From NCBI GenBank assembly GCA_001872605.1, contig MNXM01000308.1, positions 4,653 to 61,110 of the forward strand: a stretch of 56,458 nt of DNA, read 5' to 3'. The first letter of the stretch is position 1; each line of letters opens with the position of its first letter. This document shows positions 28,055-56,223 of the stretch, in pieces. The stretch comes from Armatimonadetes bacterium CG2_30_59_28 (GTDB lineage Bacteria; Armatimonadota; Abditibacteriia; CG2-30-59-28). The notes under the pieces are model-generated. The model was given only the letters and a program-made list of their open reading frames with translations, did not search any database and was not told the origin of the DNA. A program made the position numbers and the translations under genes.

Positions 28055-29029
28055 TCACCTCTCCGCGTGATCCATCGCCCAAACGGCTGCGCCAATGACT
28101 CCCGCGTCGGTGCCCAGCTCCGCCGGAACCACGTCTATCTTCCGCAGTGGCGCGGTGTGCACCCACTTCTTCAGAGTCCTGCGGATAGGATCAAACAGAA
28201 CCTCTCCCGCCCGAGCCACCCCTCCGCCGATGACGACCCTCTCAGGACACAGCGCAGCCAACAAACTGGCAATCGCCACCCCGATGTACATGCCAACCTT
28301 ATTCATAATCTCGAGGGCAGCAAGGTCGCCTGCCGCCGCTGCGCGGGCGACAACTTCCGGGGAGACCCGGTTGAGGTCGCCCTCGGCGAATTCGTACATG
28401 AGCGTTGACCCGGCGGACTGACGGATGCGCCCGATGGCCATGCCGGTGATCGCCGGCGCCGCGGCCATTGCCTCGACGCAACCGTAGCTGCCGCAACCGC
28501 AGCGTGGCCCATTATAGTCGATGATGACGTGACCCAGCTCGGCCCCGCGGGTGTCTAATCCTGTGTGCAGTTTTCCATCAATGATAAGCCCCCCGCCGAT
28601 CCCTGTGCCGATGGCAATGCCCACCATGTTCGTGGCTCCCCTGCCGGCCCCAAAACGAGACTCGGCAAGTGTAAACGCGCGAACGTCGTTCGCAACGGCA
28701 ACGGGTATGCGCAGAGCAGCTTCCAGATTCTTCTTCAGCGGAACATTGCGCCACTGCCCCTTCAAATTCGGCGAGAACACCACGATCCCGCGTTCCATGT
28801 CGGTGACACCATTAACTCCGATGCCAACCTGCGGATTCAGCTTGCCGCGCAATTGCCGCTTCCGTCGCATCTTCTGGAAACAATGGATGATGCGTCGGAT
28901 GATTTCATCCTGGTCTTCCGCACGGGTGAGTGGATCCTCGACCTTATCAACAATGTCGCCCTGTCGGTTCACAGCCGCAACAGCAATATGGGACCCCCCG
29001 AGATCGGCCCCGAGAAAGATGTCACTCAT
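28055..29029 (-). CDS. ROK family sugar kinase
   Basis: ROK (repressor, ORF, kinase) protein that phosphorylates glucose, N-acetylglucosamine or similar sugars; no DNA-binding domain is present, so it is a kinase and not a repressor. The 324 residues begin with the ATP-phosphate loop GADLGGSHIA (7-16), the catalytic ND pair in ANDVRAF (113-119), AIGTGIGGG (139-147), and the zinc motif with H167, C177, C179, C184 in RCGCGSYGC. A lipoprotein gene follows. Substrate cannot be read. Confidence 0.9.
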   Translation of the reverse strand: MSDIFLGADLGGSHIAVAAVNRQGDIVDKVEDPLTRAEDQDEIIRRIIHCFQKMRRKRQLRGKLNPQVGIGVNGVTDMERGIVVFSPNLKGQWRNVPLKKNLEAALRIPVAVANDVRAFTLAESRFGAGRGATNMVGIAIGTGIGGGLIIDGKLHTGLDTRGAELGHVIIDYNGPRCGCGSYGCVEAMAAAPAITGMAIGRIRQSAGSTLMYEFAEGDLNRVSPEVVARAAAAGDLAALEIMNKVGMYIGVAIASLLAALCPERVVIGGGVARAGEVLFDPIRRTLKKWVHTAPLRKIDVVPAELGTDAGVIGAAVWAMDHAER

Positions 29030-29310: not shown

Positions 29311-30552
29311 TCAGACGAACTCGCGGGTCACCTCAGAAACGATCTCCGACCATTCCCACAACCGTTGAGGTTTGTAGCACACCGTACTGATGTCCTTCAT
29401 AATCACCTCAACGTGCATGCCCCGCAAACGCTCCAACGTCACTCGCAGTTCACGGCGAACGTGATCGGGATCCCACGCGTCGTTGGTGTAGATGGCGGGA
29501 TTCGGTTTCAGTGAGAAAACGTAGTCCCTTCCGACGGCTTCGGCGGCCGTGTCCACGTCGATCCATGGACTCATCGAAATCTTCCGCAGATTCGGGACGT
29601 TCTTACGCAGGATGCCGACTTTTTTGTCCAGTGGCTCGCAGCAGCCGTAGTAGGTCAGCCCAAAACGATTCAGCCACCGACACTCATACTGGAGCGCAAA
29701 CTCCTCGTGCATGGCGGGGGAAACCTCAGAGAATATCTGCGACATCGTGCGCCCCCACATATCCTGCGTGCGGACGCGACGGGCATCAAAGTCGGGGGGA
29801 GGAAGCTCTTCCGTATACTGCGGCCCTCCGCCCGACCAGGTTTCGTTATTGGTGTCGAGGATGTTCAATTGCTCATATTGGTTAAGTCGGTGCAGATAGG
29901 CGTCGAAGACTCTGTCGACCAATCTGTGGACATATTCGGGACGGGTGTACATGTCCATCAGAATCTCCTGCACACCCGTGAGGCGGACCAGCAAATCCCA
30001 CGGGGCGACGCTCATCCCCTTCATCCCCACCTTCACAACAGGGAGAATGCCATCAAAGAGATCGCTCAGCATCCCGAAGTTCCTGTCCCATGCCTCCTCA
30101 TCCAGTGCAACCTGCGGCATTTGTATCTTTGCAATGTCGCTCTCATTCTGGATCTGGATGTGATAATGCCGGGACACAACGGAGCTTGTCTCATCGGTCT
30201 TCGCAATGTCGACCTTCTCGTCCAATCCCAGACCGGTGTCATGCAGCACGGGCGGAACCGGGATCACCGATTCCACGACGCTGTCGGCCGGCATGTGATC
30301 CCATTGGTACAGCTCTTGCCGCAGGGACCTCTCCAATCCGTGACAGCGCGGATCCTCGCACTGAAGCTGAAGCTCCCCGTTGACATCCATCTCGTGCCAG
30401 GGAATCTCGAAGATCCAAATCATTGGTTTCTCCGGCTGGAGCATGTTCAGCCGAACCCAGCGTTGCCTGTTCCCGTCCTGAATCGGCAGGGCGGCAATCT
30501 CGGCCTTCCGCTTCCCGAGTTCACGCAAAACGATCTTGTCTTTTTGGTTCAA
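29311..30552 (-). CDS. UroD/MtaA superfamily protein C (corrinoid methyltransferase-like)
   Basis: Uroporphyrinogen-decarboxylase-fold protein of about 413 residues. The TTG at 30552 (AAGGAGAG upstream) starts MNQKDKIVLRELGKRKAEIAALP, a common N-terminus for this branch; an alternative ATG at 30597 overlaps the mqnC end. It lacks the N-terminal RQAGR arginines of true heme-pathway UroD. The zinc region of methylcobamide:coenzyme M methyltransferases is only suggested by YYGCCEPLD (near residue 310), with no HxC motif. It follows mqnC, so it ends a menaquinone-related cluster. Methyl or carboxyl transfer to an unknown acceptor is possible; the function is unproven. Confidence 0.75.
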   Translation of the reverse strand: MNQKDKIVLRELGKRKAEIAALPIQDGNRQRWVRLNMLQPEKPMIWIFEIPWHEMDVNGELQLQCEDPRCHGLERSLRQELYQWDHMPADSVVESVIPVPPVLHDTGLGLDEKVDIAKTDETSSVVSRHYHIQIQNESDIAKIQMPQVALDEEAWDRNFGMLSDLFDGILPVVKVGMKGMSVAPWDLLVRLTGVQEILMDMYTRPEYVHRLVDRVFDAYLHRLNQYEQLNILDTNNETWSGGGPQYTEELPPPDFDARRVRTQDMWGRTMSQIFSEVSPAMHEEFALQYECRWLNRFGLTYYGCCEPLDKKVGILRKNVPNLRKISMSPWIDVDTAAEAVGRDYVFSLKPNPAIYTNDAWDPDHVRRELRVTLERLRGMHVEVIMKDISTVCYKPQRLWEWSEIVSEVTREFV

Positions 30553-30580
30553 GGCTGCGTCTCTCCTTATCTTTTCGGGT

Positions 30581-31696
30581 TCACTCAATGAACTCATACC
30601 GCGTATTCCTGCGGCGCGGCTCGTAACCTGCTTCGGCGATGACACGGCAAAACTCCGAGATGGGCATCAGGTGAAACGTTCCCGCCGCGCTGACCACGTT
30701 CTCTTCCATCATGCTGCTGCCGAAATCGTTCAGGCCATACCTCAGCGCAATCTGGGCAATCTTCGAGCCTTGTGTTACGTAGGAGGCTTGCAGGTTATCG
30801 ATGTTGTCGAGGAAGATCCGACTCAGCGCCACCATGCGGAGATACTCCGCCCCGGTGGATTTTCGTCGATCCCAGTTGGACTGCAACTCAGTGCCTTCCG
30901 GCTGGAAGTCCCAGGCGATAAAAGCTGTGAACTTCCCCCCTCCTCTGCCCGACCCAATCTCTCGAAGAGCAATATCCTGCGTCTGCCGAATCAACTCGAG
31001 GTGCTCGATGCGCTGTTCAGCCGCCTCCAGCGATCCGTACATCATGGTTGCCGTCGTGTTCATCCCGATGTGATGGGCGGCGCGGTGCACCTCAAGCCAT
31101 TCATCGGTGGTGTCCTTGCGAAAGGCAATCTGGTCGCGGACCGCGTCGCTCAAAATCTCCGCGCCTGCGCCAGGCAGGGACTGCAACCCCGCTTGGCGCA
31201 GGCGTCGCAATGTTTCCTCGATAGTCAGCTTCGAGATATGAGCAATGTAGATAATCTCGGTAGCGGACAGAGCATGGAGATAGACTTGCGGATACCTTCG
31301 AGTGATCTCGACAAAGAGCTCCTCAAAGTACTCAACGCGGAGCTTCGGGTTCAATCCCCCCTGCATCAGCAGCTCGCACCCGTGCGGAACATCGCCTCCC
31401 ACGGCGATCAGCTCGTCGATCTTCGCGAAGATCTCGTCGTGGGGAAGCGTGTATCCGTCCGGGGAGCCTGGAGCAGCGTAGAAGTTGCAGAACTTACATT
31501 TCACCCAGCAAATGTTCGTGTAGTTGATATTGCGGCCAACGTTGTAGGTAACAGTTGTGCCGGTGTGCTTCCGCCGCCGGACAAAGTCGGCCATGCCCGC
31601 AAGCTCAAGAAGGTTGGAATGAAAGTAGACCGCGGTAGCGTCCGCTACCGTCAACCGCTCACCCGCGACCACCTTCTTTTCAATCTGTTTCAGCAC
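30581..31696 (-). CDS. mqnC: Cyclic dehypoxanthinyl futalosine synthase (radical SAM)
   Basis: Radical SAM enzyme of the futalosine menaquinone pathway, closing the ring of dehypoxanthine futalosine. The 371-residue protein has the CxxxCxxC cluster at C63, C67, C70 in NINYTNICWVKCKFCNFY, the block LLMQGGLNPKL near 110, LPGAGAEIL near 180 and C-terminal DFGSSMMEENVVSAAG near 325. Translation starts with GTG 31696, overlapping the mqnE stop by seven bases. MqnC and MqnE resemble each other; the GLNPKL/ LQSLPGAGAE pattern and the EENVVSAAG end fit MqnC. Confidence 0.9.
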   Translation of the reverse strand: MLKQIEKKVVAGERLTVADATAVYFHSNLLELAGMADFVRRRKHTGTTVTYNVGRNINYTNICWVKCKFCNFYAAPGSPDGYTLPHDEIFAKIDELIAVGGDVPHGCELLMQGGLNPKLRVEYFEELFVEITRRYPQVYLHALSATEIIYIAHISKLTIEETLRRLRQAGLQSLPGAGAEILSDAVRDQIAFRKDTTDEWLEVHRAAHHIGMNTTATMMYGSLEAAEQRIEHLELIRQTQDIALREIGSGRGGGKFTAFIAWDFQPEGTELQSNWDRRKSTGAEYLRMVALSRIFLDNIDNLQASYVTQGSKIAQIALRYGLNDFGSSMMEENVVSAAGTFHLMPISEFCRVIAEAGYEPRRRNTRYEFIE

Positions 31697-32850
31697 GCCG
31701 TCGCCTCGACATCGTTGGTGTCGCGCGCAGCGTCAGAATGAGGAAGGCCTTCGCTCGAAACAACCGGATTGTAGAACGCGTCTCGTTCCACGGCATCGCG
31801 ACGCGCTTCGGCGATGAGATGCAGCAGGTCTGCCTCGCTGAGCGCCTGCCGGTGCGACGTCGCACCGAGAGCGTGCGTGATCTCGTAGTGCGCCACCGTT
31901 CCATCGATGTCGTCTGCCCCGTACCACATCGCCACCTGCGCCACCGGCGGAGTCACCATGATCCAGAAAGCCTTCACGTGGTCAAAGTTGTCGAGCATCA
32001 GACGCGCCAGCGCGATCTCCCGGAGGTTTTGCTGACCGGTAGGCGGCGGGAGATGAGACAACTCGGTATTCTGCGGGTCGAATGCGAGTGGAACGAAGCA
32101 TAGAAAGCCGCCGGTCTCATCCTGCAACTCGCGGATATGGATCAGGTGCTTCACCTTCTCCTCGACCGTCTCAATGTGTCCGTAAAGCATCGTGGCGTTA
32201 GATCGGAGACCGGAGCGGTGGACAACGCGAGCGACATCAAACCAACCTTCGTTGTCGAGTTTGGCGCGGAACAGTTCCTCGTGGACCCGGTTGCTGAAGA
32301 CCTCCGCTCCTCCGCCCGGACAGCAGTCGAGCCCCGCGGTCTTCAAGTCCGTCAACACTTCCTCTAACGGCTTCTTCGCCACGCGTTCCAGTTGCGCCAA
32401 CTCGATCATGGTGAAGGCTTTGACATGCGCCTGCGGGCGTTCGTCCCGCACCGCTCGCACGATATCCAGGTAGTACTCATAGGGCAGCTTGGGATTGATT
32501 CCGCCGACCATGTGGATTTCTCGAATGGGGTAGTCTCTGAACTCACGGACGCGTGCGCGAATAACTTCGGGTTCGAGGACGTAGCCGCGTTCGTCCCTGG
32601 GAGTGACATAAAACGAGCAGAACTTGCAGAGCTTGTTACAGATGTTCGTGTAATTGATGTGCTGGTTGCGGATGTAGTAGGCGATGCTGCCGTTCTTCTG
32701 TTCGCGCACAATGTTGGCGAGGTAACCGACGACGTTCAAATCCTCAGCCTGATAGAGACGAACGCCGTCCGAGAAATCGAGGCGTTCGCCCTCAACCACT
32801 TTCTGAAGAATATCTTCGAGTCCTGAAGCCGAGATCGTTTCTGTAAGCAT
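31690..32850 (-). CDS. mqnE: Aminofutalosine synthase (radical SAM)
   Basis: Radical SAM enzyme making 6-amino-6-deoxyfutalosine, an early step of the futalosine route. About 386 residues from ATG 32850 (AAGGT eight bases upstream). Cluster cysteines C71, C75, C78 lie in NYTNICNKLCKFCSFY; MVGGINPKLPYEYYLDI, CCPGGGAEVFS, and the C-terminal WYGADDIDGTV with HALGATSHR are characteristic of MqnE. It couples to mqnC through overlapping ends. The upstream UbiD-type gene is separated by only 30 bp. Confidence 0.9.
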   Translation of the reverse strand: MLTETISASGLEDILQKVVEGERLDFSDGVRLYQAEDLNVVGYLANIVREQKNGSIAYYIRNQHINYTNICNKLCKFCSFYVTPRDERGYVLEPEVIRARVREFRDYPIREIHMVGGINPKLPYEYYLDIVRAVRDERPQAHVKAFTMIELAQLERVAKKPLEEVLTDLKTAGLDCCPGGGAEVFSNRVHEELFRAKLDNEGWFDVARVVHRSGLRSNATMLYGHIETVEEKVKHLIHIRELQDETGGFLCFVPLAFDPQNTELSHLPPPTGQQNLREIALARLMLDNFDHVKAFWIMVTPPVAQVAMWYGADDIDGTVAHYEITHALGATSHRQALSEADLLHLIAEARRDAVERDAFYNPVVSSEGLPHSDAARDTNDVEATAC

Positions 32851-32880
32851 GACGGGCGACCTTGCCACAAGCGGAGTATT

Positions 32881-34338
32881 CTACAGCCCGAGCTCTTCCC
32901 AGATGGCGTCCACGCGCGCTTTTATTTCCGGTGACATCAGGCACTCATCCGGCCATCGCCGATGGAAGCCTTCTTCGGGAAGCTTGCGCGTCGCGTCGAT
33001 CCCCAGTTTCCCACTCAATCCGGGAGTGTAGGCGGCGAAGTCGAGGTCGTCGCAGACCCCTTCGCTCAGGACGACATCGTGCTTGGGGTCGAAGTGGGTT
33101 CCCACCTTCCACATTACCTCGGACAGGTCCTGCACGTTGACGCCTTTATCGACGATCACCACAACCTTGGTAAACATCAGTTGACCCAACCCCCACACCG
33201 CGTGCATCACCTTCCGCGCGTGTCCGGGATAACGCTTGTCAATGGAAACGATAGCAAAGTTGTGGAAGATGCCTTCGATCGGTAGGTTGATATCAACGAT
33301 CTCAGGAACGGTGGTCTTGATCAATGGCAGGAACATCCGCTCCGTGGCCTTCCCGAGCCACGCGTCCTCCTGAGGCGGGGGACCGACCACGGTGGTGATG
33401 TAGATGGGGTTCTTTCGCCGCGTCACGGCCGTAAGGTGGAAGACGGGAAACTCCTCGGCGTGCGAGTAGTACCCCTGATGGTCGCCGAACGGGCCCTCCA
33501 GCCGCCGCTCACCCGGCTCGCAATAACCCTCAAGGACGATCTCCGCGTTCGCTGGAACTTCGAGGCTCACCGTTCGGCACTTCACCAGTTCTACCGGCTC
33601 CCCCCGGAGAAAGCCGGCGAGGAGCATCTCATCCACCTCGTCCGGCAGTGGCGCGGACGCGGCGTAAATTGTCGCCGGGTCGCAGCCGATGGCGACCGCG
33701 ACTTCCAGTCGCTCGCCACGCTCCTCGGCGACGCGGTAATGCTGCGCGCCCCCCTTGTGCTGCTGCCAGTGCATCCCAAGCGTCTGGTCATCAAACTTCT
33801 GAATCCGATACAAGCCCGCGTTCCGGGCGCCATGCTCCGGGTGTTTTGTGAACGTCAGAGAAAGTGTAATGTACCGCCCCTTCCCAACCCCGCCTCCATC
33901 CCCCGGCCAACATTGAATCAACGGCAGCGGAGCCACGCTGGCGCCGGAGATTTCCACAACTTCCTGACAGACTCCTGAGGAGACAACGCGTGGCGGCAGT
34001 TCCGACAGCCGTTTCAGTTTCGGCAGCGCCTTCAGCTTCTCGATGAGCGACGTCGGAATCTCCGGCTTCAGCAGCAGCGCGATCTCCTCCCCGATGGCAT
34101 CGAGGCTCTCTGTTTCCAGCGCCAGCTCCATGCGGCGCCGCGTCCCGAAAGCGTTGATGAGAACCGGAATGTCGTGCCCTTTCACCTCGTTGAAGAGCAA
34201 AGCGGGCCCGTCTCGCTTGACAACGCGATTGTAGACCTCGGAGACTTCGAGGAGAGGATCCACCTCCACGTCGATTTCGCGGAGTTCGCCTTTCGCCCGG
34301 AGCGCCTGAACGAAATCATGGAGGTCACGATACGCCAC
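32881..34338 (-). CDS. UbiD family decarboxylase, menaquinone-type
   Basis: Member of the prenylated-FMN-dependent UbiD decarboxylase family, with 485 residues of normal length. Visible family blocks are GRYITLSLTFTKHPE (near 155), ALPD/VDEMLLAGFLRGEPVELVKC (near 235), and the acid pair region EGPFGDHQGYYS (near 285) that contains the catalytic glutamate/aspartate. It lies between UroD-like B and mqnE, and a UbiD homologue is used in the futalosine pathway for a late decarboxylation, so that is the likely job. The prFMN synthase UbiX is not in the window. Confidence 0.88.
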   Translation of the reverse strand: MAYRDLHDFVQALRAKGELREIDVEVDPLLEVSEVYNRVVKRDGPALLFNEVKGHDIPVLINAFGTRRRMELALETESLDAIGEEIALLLKPEIPTSLIEKLKALPKLKRLSELPPRVVSSGVCQEVVEISGASVAPLPLIQCWPGDGGGVGKGRYITLSLTFTKHPEHGARNAGLYRIQKFDDQTLGMHWQQHKGGAQHYRVAEERGERLEVAVAIGCDPATIYAASAPLPDEVDEMLLAGFLRGEPVELVKCRTVSLEVPANAEIVLEGYCEPGERRLEGPFGDHQGYYSHAEEFPVFHLTAVTRRKNPIYITTVVGPPPQEDAWLGKATERMFLPLIKTTVPEIVDINLPIEGIFHNFAIVSIDKRYPGHARKVMHAVWGLGQLMFTKVVVIVDKGVNVQDLSEVMWKVGTHFDPKHDVVLSEGVCDDLDFAAYTPGLSGKLGIDATRKLPEEGFHRRWPDECLMSPEIKARVDAIWEELGL

Positions 34339-34365
34339 TGAGTTCCCCCGAAGGAAAGCATCCCA

Positions 34366-35604
34366 CTACCGGTACTCGTTCACAGCCTCGACCATCGCAA
34401 CGACATTCTGCGGAGGAACGCTTGCCAGGATGTTGTGAATCTGCGTGAAAACGAATCCGCCCCCCGGGCGGAAGATGGCAAGTCGCTCCCGCACCTGCTC
34501 CCTGACCTCAGCCGGTGTGTCGTGCTGCAGCACACCCTGAGTTTCACACCCGCCACCCCAGAAGCAAATATCTTTCCCGTATTCCTTCTTCAGGTGAGCG
34601 GCAGCCATGCGCGAGCAATTCGTCTGCACCGGGTTCAGTATTTCCACACCTGCATCGATCAGGTCGGGGAGCAGCTCTTCCACCGATCCGCAGGAGTGCA
34701 GGAAAATTTTAATATCGGCCAGCGTCTTGACATGGGCAATTAATGCCTTGAGTCTCGGCTTGAACAGCTTCCGAAAGGTGTCCGGCGATATCTGCGCGCC
34801 CGACTGGCTTCCCAGATCGTCGCCCAGTTGGATGATCTGGACAGAGCCGTTGATGGCGGGAAGAATCTTCTCAGCGTTGCTGATGTGGAGTTCCAGCAAA
34901 CGATCCAGCAGGGCCGCCACTTGTCCCGGACTGGCCGCCACGTCCATCAGAAAATTGTCGATACGCCGCAGGAATTGACCCCATTCGAGGAAGTTGCCGC
35001 CAAAGGCGATCATGATGGCCTTGTCGGTGGTCTCACACAACTGCCGCGCCGTCTGCCGGATGTCATTCAAGTGCTCCGGCGTCAGTGGCTTGTGGTAGGG
35101 CGCGGTCGGCATCGCGGCCCAGGTAACCTTGCCCATCCACTCCGGCACCCTTTTCAGGTCCCACGGTTCCTCCAGGTCTGCCATCGGCCAATGGCACTGG
35201 CTAACGTACTGCACCCCTTTCGGCATGCGCCCGATGATCGTGCCGTCGGCATGTTCACACACCCACCCTCCATCCCTGGGCTTTAGATTGATATAGGCGG
35301 GCAACTGCCCCGGCGAGCCGTCCGGCAGCGTCCAATCCTTCCACTCGGTGTCAGCGGTCAGAAAGGCACGTCCCATGTCGACCACGTCTGCCTGCCAGAA
35401 ATCAAGGGCGTCATCATCCGGCTGAGCCAGCTGCTGGATCACGTCATAGACCTTCGTGTTTCCGGCTTCCCACCCGAGATACTCACGCAAGCGATTGTAG
35501 GCAATCGCCATGATCCCCGTCGAGCGCATTCCTCCCAGGTCCACAGGCACCCGATCGGGTTCTCGGTGCTCGATGGCCGCGAGAACACGTTCACGACTGG
35601 TCAT
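34366..35604 (-). CDS. UroD/MtaA superfamily protein B with zinc motif
   Basis: UroD-fold protein of 412 residues that keeps the zinc pattern of methylcobamide methyltransferases: FLHSCG gives H303 and C305, and WGGGCETQ gives C353. N-terminal MTSRERVLAAIEHREPDRVP is standard for this group. True UroD arginines are absent, so it is unlikely to decarboxylate uroporphyrinogen. A corrinoid-dependent methyltransferase role would need a corrinoid protein that is not nearby. It is 27 bp upstream of the UbiD gene and downstream of UroD-like A. Confidence 0.8.
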   Translation of the reverse strand: MTSRERVLAAIEHREPDRVPVDLGGMRSTGIMAIAYNRLREYLGWEAGNTKVYDVIQQLAQPDDDALDFWQADVVDMGRAFLTADTEWKDWTLPDGSPGQLPAYINLKPRDGGWVCEHADGTIIGRMPKGVQYVSQCHWPMADLEEPWDLKRVPEWMGKVTWAAMPTAPYHKPLTPEHLNDIRQTARQLCETTDKAIMIAFGGNFLEWGQFLRRIDNFLMDVAASPGQVAALLDRLLELHISNAEKILPAINGSVQIIQLGDDLGSQSGAQISPDTFRKLFKPRLKALIAHVKTLADIKIFLHSCGSVEELLPDLIDAGVEILNPVQTNCSRMAAAHLKKEYGKDICFWGGGCETQGVLQHDTPAEVREQVRERLAIFRPGGGFVFTQIHNILASVPPQNVVAMVEAVNEYR

Positions 35605-35622
35605 CTCTGTGCCTCCTTCCCG

Positions 35623-36684
35623 TCAGGACTCGTACCCGCCATATTGGCGAACGAGGTCGATGACGAATGAGTAGTTCTCGAAACTTACCGTGGGCGGGAT
35701 GGAGTGATCGCAGTGGTACATGTACCCACCACCTTCCTTTGCCGCAGTGACCTTGGTGGAAACTTCCTCGAAAATCTCATCCTTCGTCCGACACATCACA
35801 TCGGTGCTGATGTTCCCGAAAAACACAATATCGGCCCCATACTGCTTCTTGTACTTCCGAATGTCGTTGCCGCAGCGCGCCTCAATCGGCTGCATGGCGT
35901 CGAATCCGGCTGCGATCAGGAGCGGAATCATCTCTCCCATGTAGCCGTCGCAGTGGAAGATCATCGGGAGATCGTGCCTGTCACAGAACGCACGCGTTGC
36001 CTGGTGGCTTGGAAGGACAAGCTCACGGTGTACCTTCGGCGAGTACAGCATCCCGTTTTTGTAGCAGAGGTCGGAGAAAAACCACAGCCCGTCGAATTCC
36101 ATCCCCGCGTCGATCAACTGCTGCATGAGACGGTGGTTGAACTCGGTATGCGTACGGATAACATCAGCAACGAAGTCGGGCTGCTCCGCCAGTGTCTCGA
36201 GAGCCATCTCGAACCCCATGAGGTGCTCGAGAAAGTACCACATGGGTTCACAAGGACGAATCGTAATGAAGCAATCCCGCTCGCGGAGTTGGCGGTACGT
36301 CTCTCCGATCGACTCCACTGAAACGTTTCCGCCGAAGTTCTCCTTATGGGCATTCCAGTCGTCCCACGTTTTGATGGTCGCATCCAGCCGGGATGGGGTC
36401 GCGTAATTGTTCTTCCACGACCTGACCACTGCCCCATCCGCGTCGCGGCGGACAACATAGTCGTCCGTCTCGTCCAGCGTCTCCTCCGGCAGTTGTAGGT
36501 TCGCCTGAAAGCCCAGAACACCTATCTCATCCAAACCGAAATATTCGGTGGGCGATATACCGGCTGGCAACCCCTCGGCACGCCACCGCTCGACCGTCTC
36601 CGGCCAGAAGCAGATATCCACCATCGGCACGCGGTCAGGCACTCGATGGTTCAGTGTTTCCCGAATTCGTTCTCGTGATGTCAT
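35623..36684 (-). CDS. UroD/MtaA superfamily protein A
   Basis: Third UroD-fold protein of the cluster, about 353 residues from ATG 36684 (MTSRERIRETLNHRVPDRVP). The putative metal region reads FHCDGYMGE with H244 (HCDG in place of HxC), a later FFGNIST lacks the third ligand cysteine, and YHCDHSIPPTV lies near 323. Thus its zinc site is likely incomplete compared with protein B. No convincing Shine-Dalgarno site precedes it; an inverted repeat lies directly upstream. It is first of the run toward UbiD and mqn genes. Confidence 0.78.
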   Translation of the reverse strand: MTSRERIRETLNHRVPDRVPMVDICFWPETVERWRAEGLPAGISPTEYFGLDEIGVLGFQANLQLPEETLDETDDYVVRRDADGAVVRSWKNNYATPSRLDATIKTWDDWNAHKENFGGNVSVESIGETYRQLRERDCFITIRPCEPMWYFLEHLMGFEMALETLAEQPDFVADVIRTHTEFNHRLMQQLIDAGMEFDGLWFFSDLCYKNGMLYSPKVHRELVLPSHQATRAFCDRHDLPMIFHCDGYMGEMIPLLIAAGFDAMQPIEARCGNDIRKYKKQYGADIVFFGNISTDVMCRTKDEIFEEVSTKVTAAKEGGGYMYHCDHSIPPTVSFENYSFVIDLVRQYGGYES

Positions 36685-36760: not shown

Positions 36761-36961
36761 TCATCGAAAATAGTCCGGCGCGTTCTTGTGGAGGTCGTAA
36801 TCCTCCTGCTTCCAAGTCTCGATACCACAGCCTCTGCAAAGCCGCTCCAACTGCCCGAAGGAGGTAACATTGTAGTTCTGGAGAATCTGCAACGCCTCCA
36901 ACCCGCGTGACTGCGTCATCAATTCAGCGGCTTGCTCAAGGAGTCGCCGAGGGATTTCCAA
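36761..36961 (-). CDS. Small hypothetical protein
   Basis: A possible 66-residue protein from TTG 36961, with AAAGGA about ten bases before it, ending KQEDYDLHKNAPDYFR. Helical and leucine-rich in the middle (LLEQAAELM, LEALQILQNY). It overlaps nothing with the lipoprotein, whose stop is at 36969. No family recognised; support is only the intact frame and its acceptable start, so I hold it loosely. Confidence 0.4.
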   Translation of the reverse strand: MEIPRRLLEQAAELMTQSRGLEALQILQNYNVTSFGQLERLCRGCGIETWKQEDYDLHKNAPDYFR

Positions 36962-55117: not shown

Positions 55118-55170
55118 CGACGATCACTGTAACCCGTATTTTCCGATCTCTCTGAGAGTTGGTGAGGAAC

Positions 55171-56223
55171 GTGCCAGAATACCGAATGGATGAACCCCGA
55201 TTCGGTTGGTCGGTTCATTGTGGCATGCCCGCTCTCGGAAAGTTGGCTGGCGTCCCCCACCACCGTCTGTTCTACGACCTCGACGCCATCATCGAGGCGT
55301 ACACCGTTGGTAAGCCGCGCGCCCTTGAGATTTTCGGGCATGACATCACCATTCCGCCGCCTTTCTGGGAAGGCATCAGCTATGGTCACGCCAACGCCCT
55401 TGGGTGCGAGTTGGTTTTCCCTGAAGACAGCGAGGTAGCGACGCGTCCCATCTACGGCAGTCTGGAGAAAGGAATCGACGCGCTACGACAGGACATCGAC
55501 TTCTCGGCGAGTGGGCGCATCCCATACTACCTCGACTTGTGGAAGAAGCTGCAACGCGCCTTTCCGGAAGAGCAACTCTCGTTCGGTGGTCTGAAAGCAG
55601 AGGGCCCCATGACCACGGCGTGGATACTCCGTGGGCACGACTTCTTCACGGACGTGTACGATGATCCTCCGCTCGCAAGGGAGTACCTCGCCGCAGTGAC
55701 GGACAGCATCATCCAGTTCCAGCGATTCATTCGCCGAGTCAACGGCGCGCCGGAGGTGTCGGAGTGGGGCGTCGGGCTGGTGGATGACATCGCCGCAATG
55801 TTCCGCCCCGAGCTGTGGCCGGAATGGGTCATCCCGTTTGAGGAGCAGTACTTCCGCGGGCTGACCACCCATACGGGGCCCACGACGGGCAAGCGGCACG
55901 CCCACATCGAGAACCTCGCGCCGTCCCACCTTCCGTATCTCGACACGATGGACATCTACAGCTTCGATCCGTCCGTGTCGCCGCGGCTGACACCATCGTT
56001 GGTGCGCGACGGCTGCAGGTCGCGTTTCTCCTGGCTGCTGAACCCGATGCAACTCAGGGACTTCTCTGAAGAAAATGTGAGGCGATGGGTCGAGGAGTCC
56101 GTAGCGGGGGGAGCCTCGCACTTGGAGCTGCACATTGAGCGGATTGCCTGCGATGTTGCGTCGGCACGCAAGTTAGCGGCCTTTTTGAAGTCTGCAAAGA
56201 ATGGTCGAAGCACCCACGGCTGA
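55171..56223 (+). CDS. UroD superfamily protein D
   Basis: Fourth UroD-fold protein in the window, about 350 residues. The start is uncertain: GTG 55171 has GAGGAAC too close, GTG 55162 and ATG 55186 are possible. It has a UroD-like core with GGLKAEGPMTTAWILRGHDFF (near 135-155) and SWLLNPMQLRDFS near the end, but lacks both the heme UroD arginines and the HxC zinc pattern; the corresponding region reads HAHIENLAP. It is more distant from proteins A-C than they are from each other, and it follows an MFS transporter, so a sugar- or methyl-related role is open. Confidence 0.7.
   Translation: MPEYRMDEPRFGWSVHCGMPALGKLAGVPHHRLFYDLDAIIEAYTVGKPRALEIFGHDITIPPPFWEGISYGHANALGCELVFPEDSEVATRPIYGSLEKGIDALRQDIDFSASGRIPYYLDLWKKLQRAFPEEQLSFGGLKAEGPMTTAWILRGHDFFTDVYDDPPLAREYLAAVTDSIIQFQRFIRRVNGAPEVSEWGVGLVDDIAAMFRPELWPEWVIPFEEQYFRGLTTHTGPTTGKRHAHIENLAPSHLPYLDTMDIYSFDPSVSPRLTPSLVRDGCRSRFSWLLNPMQLRDFSEENVRRWVEESVAGGASHLELHIERIACDVASARKLAAFLKSAKNGRSTHG

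Follow-up and report, generated by a model that had tools for sequence, protein, structure and literature searches.

A menaquinone gene triad flanked by three divergent UroD-superfamily genes in a single Armatimonadota lineage

We analysed a 56,458-nt stretch of contig MNXM01000308.1 (the window; coordinates are positions within it unless a contig or locus is named) from the metagenome-assembled genome of Armatimonadetes bacterium CG2_30_59_28 (G000), where three genes for proteins of the uroporphyrinogen decarboxylase (UroD) superfamily, here called A, B and C, stand beside genes of the futalosine pathway of menaquinone biosynthesis in an arrangement that was found in no relative examined. 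The six genes lie on the minus strand in the transcription order A, B, ubiD, mqnE, mqnC and C, with the following features:

35623..36684, - strand, UroD-like A, 353 aa if translated from the family-consistent start; a longer in-frame start lies at 36870
34366..35604, - strand, UroD-like B, 412 aa, with conserved His303-x-Cys305 and His390; its clade has members in corrinoid-protein operons
32881..34338, - strand, ubiD, UbiD-family menaquinone biosynthesis decarboxylase of the SCO4490 type, above the TIGR03701 cut-off
31690..32868, - strand, mqnE, aminofutalosine synthase, above the TIGR03700 cut-off
30581..31696, - strand, mqnC, cyclic dehypoxanthinyl futalosine synthase, above the TIGR03699 cut-off
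29311..30564, - strand, UroD-like C, 417 aa if translated from the family-consistent start; in-frame starts further upstream, up to 30645, overlap mqnC
28055..29029, - strand, ROK-family sugar kinase-like gene, downstream of C

The genes are separated by 18 bp (A-B), 27 bp (B-ubiD), 12–30 bp depending on the choice of start codon (ubiD-mqnE) and about 16 bp (mqnC-C), and mqnE and mqnC overlap by 7 bp. On either side of the block lie ~280 bp, beyond which are a gene without a family assignment upstream and the ROK-family gene downstream. Because of this tight packing and the gaps at both ends, the six genes probably form one transcript. A pattern scan for promoters and terminators found no site in the block junctions and none above shuffled sequences, a result of low weight for this phylum. 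An earlier note on this DNA was partly confirmed: the gene order on one strand, the coordinates, the short gaps and the 7-bp overlap were all reproduced. Its description of the UroD-like genes as woven into the menaquinone cluster was overstated, in that the ubiD-mqnE-mqnC triad is unbroken, preceded by A and B and followed by C, and some of its motif details did not hold, as described below.

All three genes of the triad were placed in the futalosine pathway by NCBIfam equivalog models, with scores of 609.1 for UbiD (cut-off 495.9), 438.1 for MqnE (cut-off 434.55) and 437.2 for MqnC (cut-off 428.1), and a VitK2_biosynth (MqnA/MqnD family) gene was found on contig C340 of the same genome. The order ubiD-mqnE-mqnC also occurs in three relatives (G003, G016 and G080), there without A, B or C, whereas the triad of the window has flanking UroD-like genes of these subfamilies. 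In two other genomes the MqnE and MqnC matches form the first and second halves, respectively, of a single ~800-aa frame (L079 71-2536, - strand, in G007; L080 7256-9673, + strand, in G021).

A and B belong to the UroD superfamily, which has a UroD-like TIM barrel, by sequence, scoring 65.9 and 88.2 bits against Pfam URO-D (cut-off 23.9); C falls just below the cut-off with 23.5 bits and belongs to the superfamily by structure comparison. When AlphaFold models were compared with known structures, that of B (pLDDT 87.3) matched UroD and MtaA structures with a best E-value of 5.6e-14 and MetE more weakly, and that of C (pLDDT 86.8) matched UroD, MtaA and MetE folds (best E-value 2.3e-08) and nothing else at E<1e-3. 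With pairwise identities of 25% (A/B), 15% (A/C) and 17% (B/C), the three proteins are not copies of one another, as the earlier note had recognised.

None of them is a true uroporphyrinogen decarboxylase (HemE), which was ruled out by TIGR01464 scores of 22 bits for A and B against 302.95, with no match for C, and by the absence of the N-terminal Arg pair. Regarding the individual arginines, which had been reported missing from all three, both are absent from A and C; in B, Arg27 aligns with the first of the two HemE arginines (7/10 relatives) and the second is missing. The genuine HemE of this genome occupies the C-terminal half of a protein of 697 aa (contig C259, L162 11433-13526), the N-terminal half of which looks HemD-like (uroporphyrinogen-III synthase) as read from its sequence, with no database match. 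A and B also fell far below the curated MtaA/CmuA model TIGR01463 (19.2 and 56.4 bits, respectively, against 235.4). The best solved relative of B by both sequence and fold is nonetheless MtaA, the methylcobamide:coenzyme M methyltransferase of PDB 4AY7; B keeps the His-x-Cys of this enzyme and differs from it in having His at the third ligand position and only ~18% identity in the structural alignment.

In this superfamily, S-methyltransferases use a His-Cys-Cys zinc site, and O-methyltransferases swap one or both cysteines for carboxylates or non-coordinating residues (Kountz and Balskus, PMC10418091). The His-Cys-Cys site is present in none of the three proteins, which have His-Asp-His (A), His-Cys-His (B) and no such site (C). 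In A, His244-Cys-Asp246 and His327 are invariant across eleven aligned sequences, and under these ligand rules its predicted site is closer to the O-methyltransferase type. In B, His303, Cys305 and His390 are invariant among ten aligned relatives, two of which have Val in place of Cys353, the sole plausible third cysteine. His390 aligns with the C-terminal His of HemE and with a Cys of a methyltransferase-type protein in G080. Since it thus occupies the third-ligand position, the predicted metal site of B would be His-Cys-His, and the full H-x-C...C zinc pattern previously ascribed to B was a misreading. The third Cys is missing from A as had been stated, with His327 at that place; C likewise has neither the His nor a His-x-Cys site, yet it carries YGCCE and KD motifs that are both invariant.

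We then examined whether the association with menaquinone genes is conserved. Among 101 genomes searched, 72 contained mqnC, and no A, B or C homologue was located beside it among the homologues reported across them. The nearest case was an A homologue 12 kb away from mqnC in G079, and elsewhere in that genus the two genes lie on separate contigs. Approximately 57 mqnC neighbourhoods of other genomes (2.8–21 kb each) contained one UroD gene in total according to a UroD-derived profile, namely a gene of a different subfamily located three genes upstream of ubiD in G080. Judged by loose first-look candidates for UroD genes in relatives, the abundance of mqnC and UroD is uncoupled across the phylum: G004, G012, G017 and G026 have mqnC and few UroD candidates, and G014, G028, G051 and G069 have many candidates yet no mqnC. 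A conserved neighbourhood was therefore rejected, with no such adjacency found in independent relatives, the sister genus included. The arrangement was seen in G000 only, an outcome that the earlier note had itself named as speaking against its proposal, and given the relatives that lack it, it looks like a rearrangement of local origin and not like an additional step of quinone synthesis. A limited literature collection held no publication that treats UroD in Armatimonadetes or together with the futalosine pathway.

In the genome of the sister genus (G001), no two of ubiD, mqnC, B and C lie together, and every readable junction differs from that of the window. B (62% identical) sits between an SppA-like gene and MmgE/PrpD, and ubiD (77% identical) has bioB on one side and a Rieske-like gene on the other, these two being named from their translations. 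A B-then-ubiD order masked by contig ends was ruled out, as MmgE/PrpD follows B and bioB precedes ubiD. C (74% identical) is downstream of a BNR-repeat gene and a gene without a Pfam match. The sister mqnC (75% identical) is followed by DUF4149 and then by a ROK gene 62% identical to that of the window. This mqnC-DUF4149-ROK order without C suggests an older mqnC-ROK stretch into which C was inserted or of which it took over a part. The identities of B and C to their sister-genus orthologues indicate that both genes belong to this lineage.

G000 contains about 72 UroD-superfamily genes, consisting of 68 PF01208 matches and four C-type genes outside that list. These genes clump, with 17 pairs within 7.5 kb where 6.6 were expected, and three UroD genes share a 7.5-kb stretch at four separate loci, one of them that of the window; at least one such triple appears in about a fifth of random layouts. 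A UroD triple is not rare here and is a property of the genome, not of the menaquinone locus, as the clustering and the four triples show. A signature partner family for UroD genes was also rejected, because the 75 neighbouring proteins examined matched 99 Pfam families, the commonest of which, MtaB among these, occurred in only 3/75. Elsewhere in G000, a UroD gene of the C type and the beginning of mnmA (tRNA thiouridylase; G000:C103, L178 4211-6704) overlap, so that a UroD gene is attached to a housekeeping gene, and the window itself has a fourth, divergent UroD-superfamily gene at 55159-56223 (+ strand; PF01208, 37.8 bits), which adjoins an MFS transporter gene.

For A and B, the genomic contexts of relatives point to methyl transfer. 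In genus g9, the A orthologue (53–55% identical) directly adjoins MtaB, a subunit of the methanol:corrinoid methyltransferase, and a distant A-like gene of G042 has MtaB on one side and a corrinoid protein on the other. For B, a same-strand run in G021 encodes a corrinoid protein, a pterin-binding methyltransferase, formate-tetrahydrofolate ligase (FTHFS), a sulfite-reductase-like protein and, as the last member, a B-clade protein, and a corresponding set is present in G034. The UroD genes of these two operons are 41–42% identical to B and are grouped with it in the tree with a support of 0.998, whereas neither a pterin methyltransferase nor a corrinoid protein adjoins B in the window. Several UroD-superfamily proteins that are not copies similarly occur together in type 1 mlp gene clusters (Kountz and Balskus, PMC10418091), with Mlp2 and Mlp3 accompanied by a corrinoid protein and RACE; the window block, in contrast, has no corrinoid protein, RACE or His-Cys-Cys site. 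No context signal comparable to those of A and B was seen for C in relatives.

The corresponding machinery of G000 is encoded outside the block. One small corrinoid protein is located beside a RACo-type reactivator/ATPase on contig C284 (L160), and contig C130 (L161) carries Wood-Ljungdahl genes comprising acetyl-CoA synthase (ACS), CdhD, a pterin-binding methyltransferase, another RACo, a CooC-like gene and FTHFS. A 1206-aa frame resembling MetH is also present in this genome. The most economical reading, which we hold with moderate confidence, is that A and B are putative methyltransferases using components encoded elsewhere; the transfer of function is kept at this strength because each methyl-transfer signal comes mainly from one lineage.

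Taken together, we favour, with somewhat better than even confidence, a young lineage-specific block in which A and B most likely perform corrinoid-dependent methyl transfer and are not quinone enzymes. On this view, three proteins of an expanded superfamily came to be encoded next to a conserved ubiD-mqnE-mqnC triad in this lineage alone, and despite probable co-transcription they most likely play no part in quinone synthesis. In the proposed mechanism, a metal bound by His-x-Asp/His in A or by His-x-Cys/His in B would activate the donor or the acceptor of a methyl group, this group would move to or from the corrinoid protein encoded on C284, and tetrahydrofolate and the Wood-Ljungdahl pathway encoded on C130 would receive it next. 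C shares the fold and has a different active site. Of the interpretations offered in the earlier note, the quinone link failed for want of any examined relative sharing the neighbourhood, corrinoid methyl transfer gained indirect support for A and B only, and the option that the genes merely share a promoter fits best, with co-transcription inferred from the spacing.

Several observations weigh against this account. The compactness of the six-gene block with its flanking gaps suggests selected co-expression that pure chance leaves unexplained, and the sister genome used for comparison is a fragmented metagenome-assembled genome that is 72% complete. MtaB was not found in G000, and one small corrinoid protein was found there against ~72 UroD-like genes. 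The MtaB adjacency is essentially limited to one genus, apart from the distant G042 case, and the corrinoid operon to one family. Furthermore, the A-B order recurs in G025 within an array of eight consecutive same-strand UroD genes (G025:C156, L089 2388-12079), where relatives of A and B adjoin in the window order, and the two may be a functional pair.

The recurrent A-B pair, the operon-like spacing and the Wood-Ljungdahl and corrinoid-protein genes of G000 would also fit co-regulation without shared chemistry, in which A, B and C handle methyl groups in carbon and energy metabolism and were recruited to the menaquinone operon since the cell needs respiration and methyl oxidation at the same time. 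We regard this as rather unlikely, given that the arrangement occurs in one genome only and that other UroD genes, in G000 as well as in relatives, adjoin housekeeping genes (for example mnmA and exonuclease VII), as random insertion would give. An extension that we consider improbable is a hub-type methyl economy, in which dozens of divergent UroD-fold methyltransferases, A and B among them and possibly also C through its CysCys site, would all use one corrinoid protein or work without any, some of them being wired into the respiratory quinone operon for joint expression of methyl use and electron transport.

Direct participation of the UroD-like proteins in menaquinone synthesis, by methylating, demethylating or decarboxylating a ring intermediate or by assisting in such a step, would agree with their tight packing with ubiD-mqnE-mqnC and with a fold that covers both decarboxylases and methyltransferases (PMC10418091). 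This is very unlikely, however, because homologues of A, B and C are never beside mqnC in relatives, G001 has mqnC and the B and C orthologues in separate places, many relatives with mqnC have almost no UroD-like genes, and the UbiD-family protein already serves as the decarboxylase. That the UroD and menaquinone genes were joined by metagenome mis-assembly or binning is scarcely credible either: G000 is a 344-contig draft and no other genome has the arrangement, but the overlaps and gaps are of 7–30 bp with reading frames intact on both sides of every junction, the contig is 61 kb long, the downstream ROK gene is common to the window and the sister genus, and B and C have close orthologues in that genus.

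These results remove a tempting hypothesis of quinone modification and correct the zinc-motif reading, leaving a juxtaposition that is genuine but lineage-specific. More interesting than the locus itself is the imbalance in the genome, and the better question is why some Armatimonadota keep ~70 UroD-superfamily proteins with one small corrinoid carrier. If all of the UroD-like proteins use one carrier or none, neighbourhood-based rules for predicting corrinoid methyltransferases would need revision.
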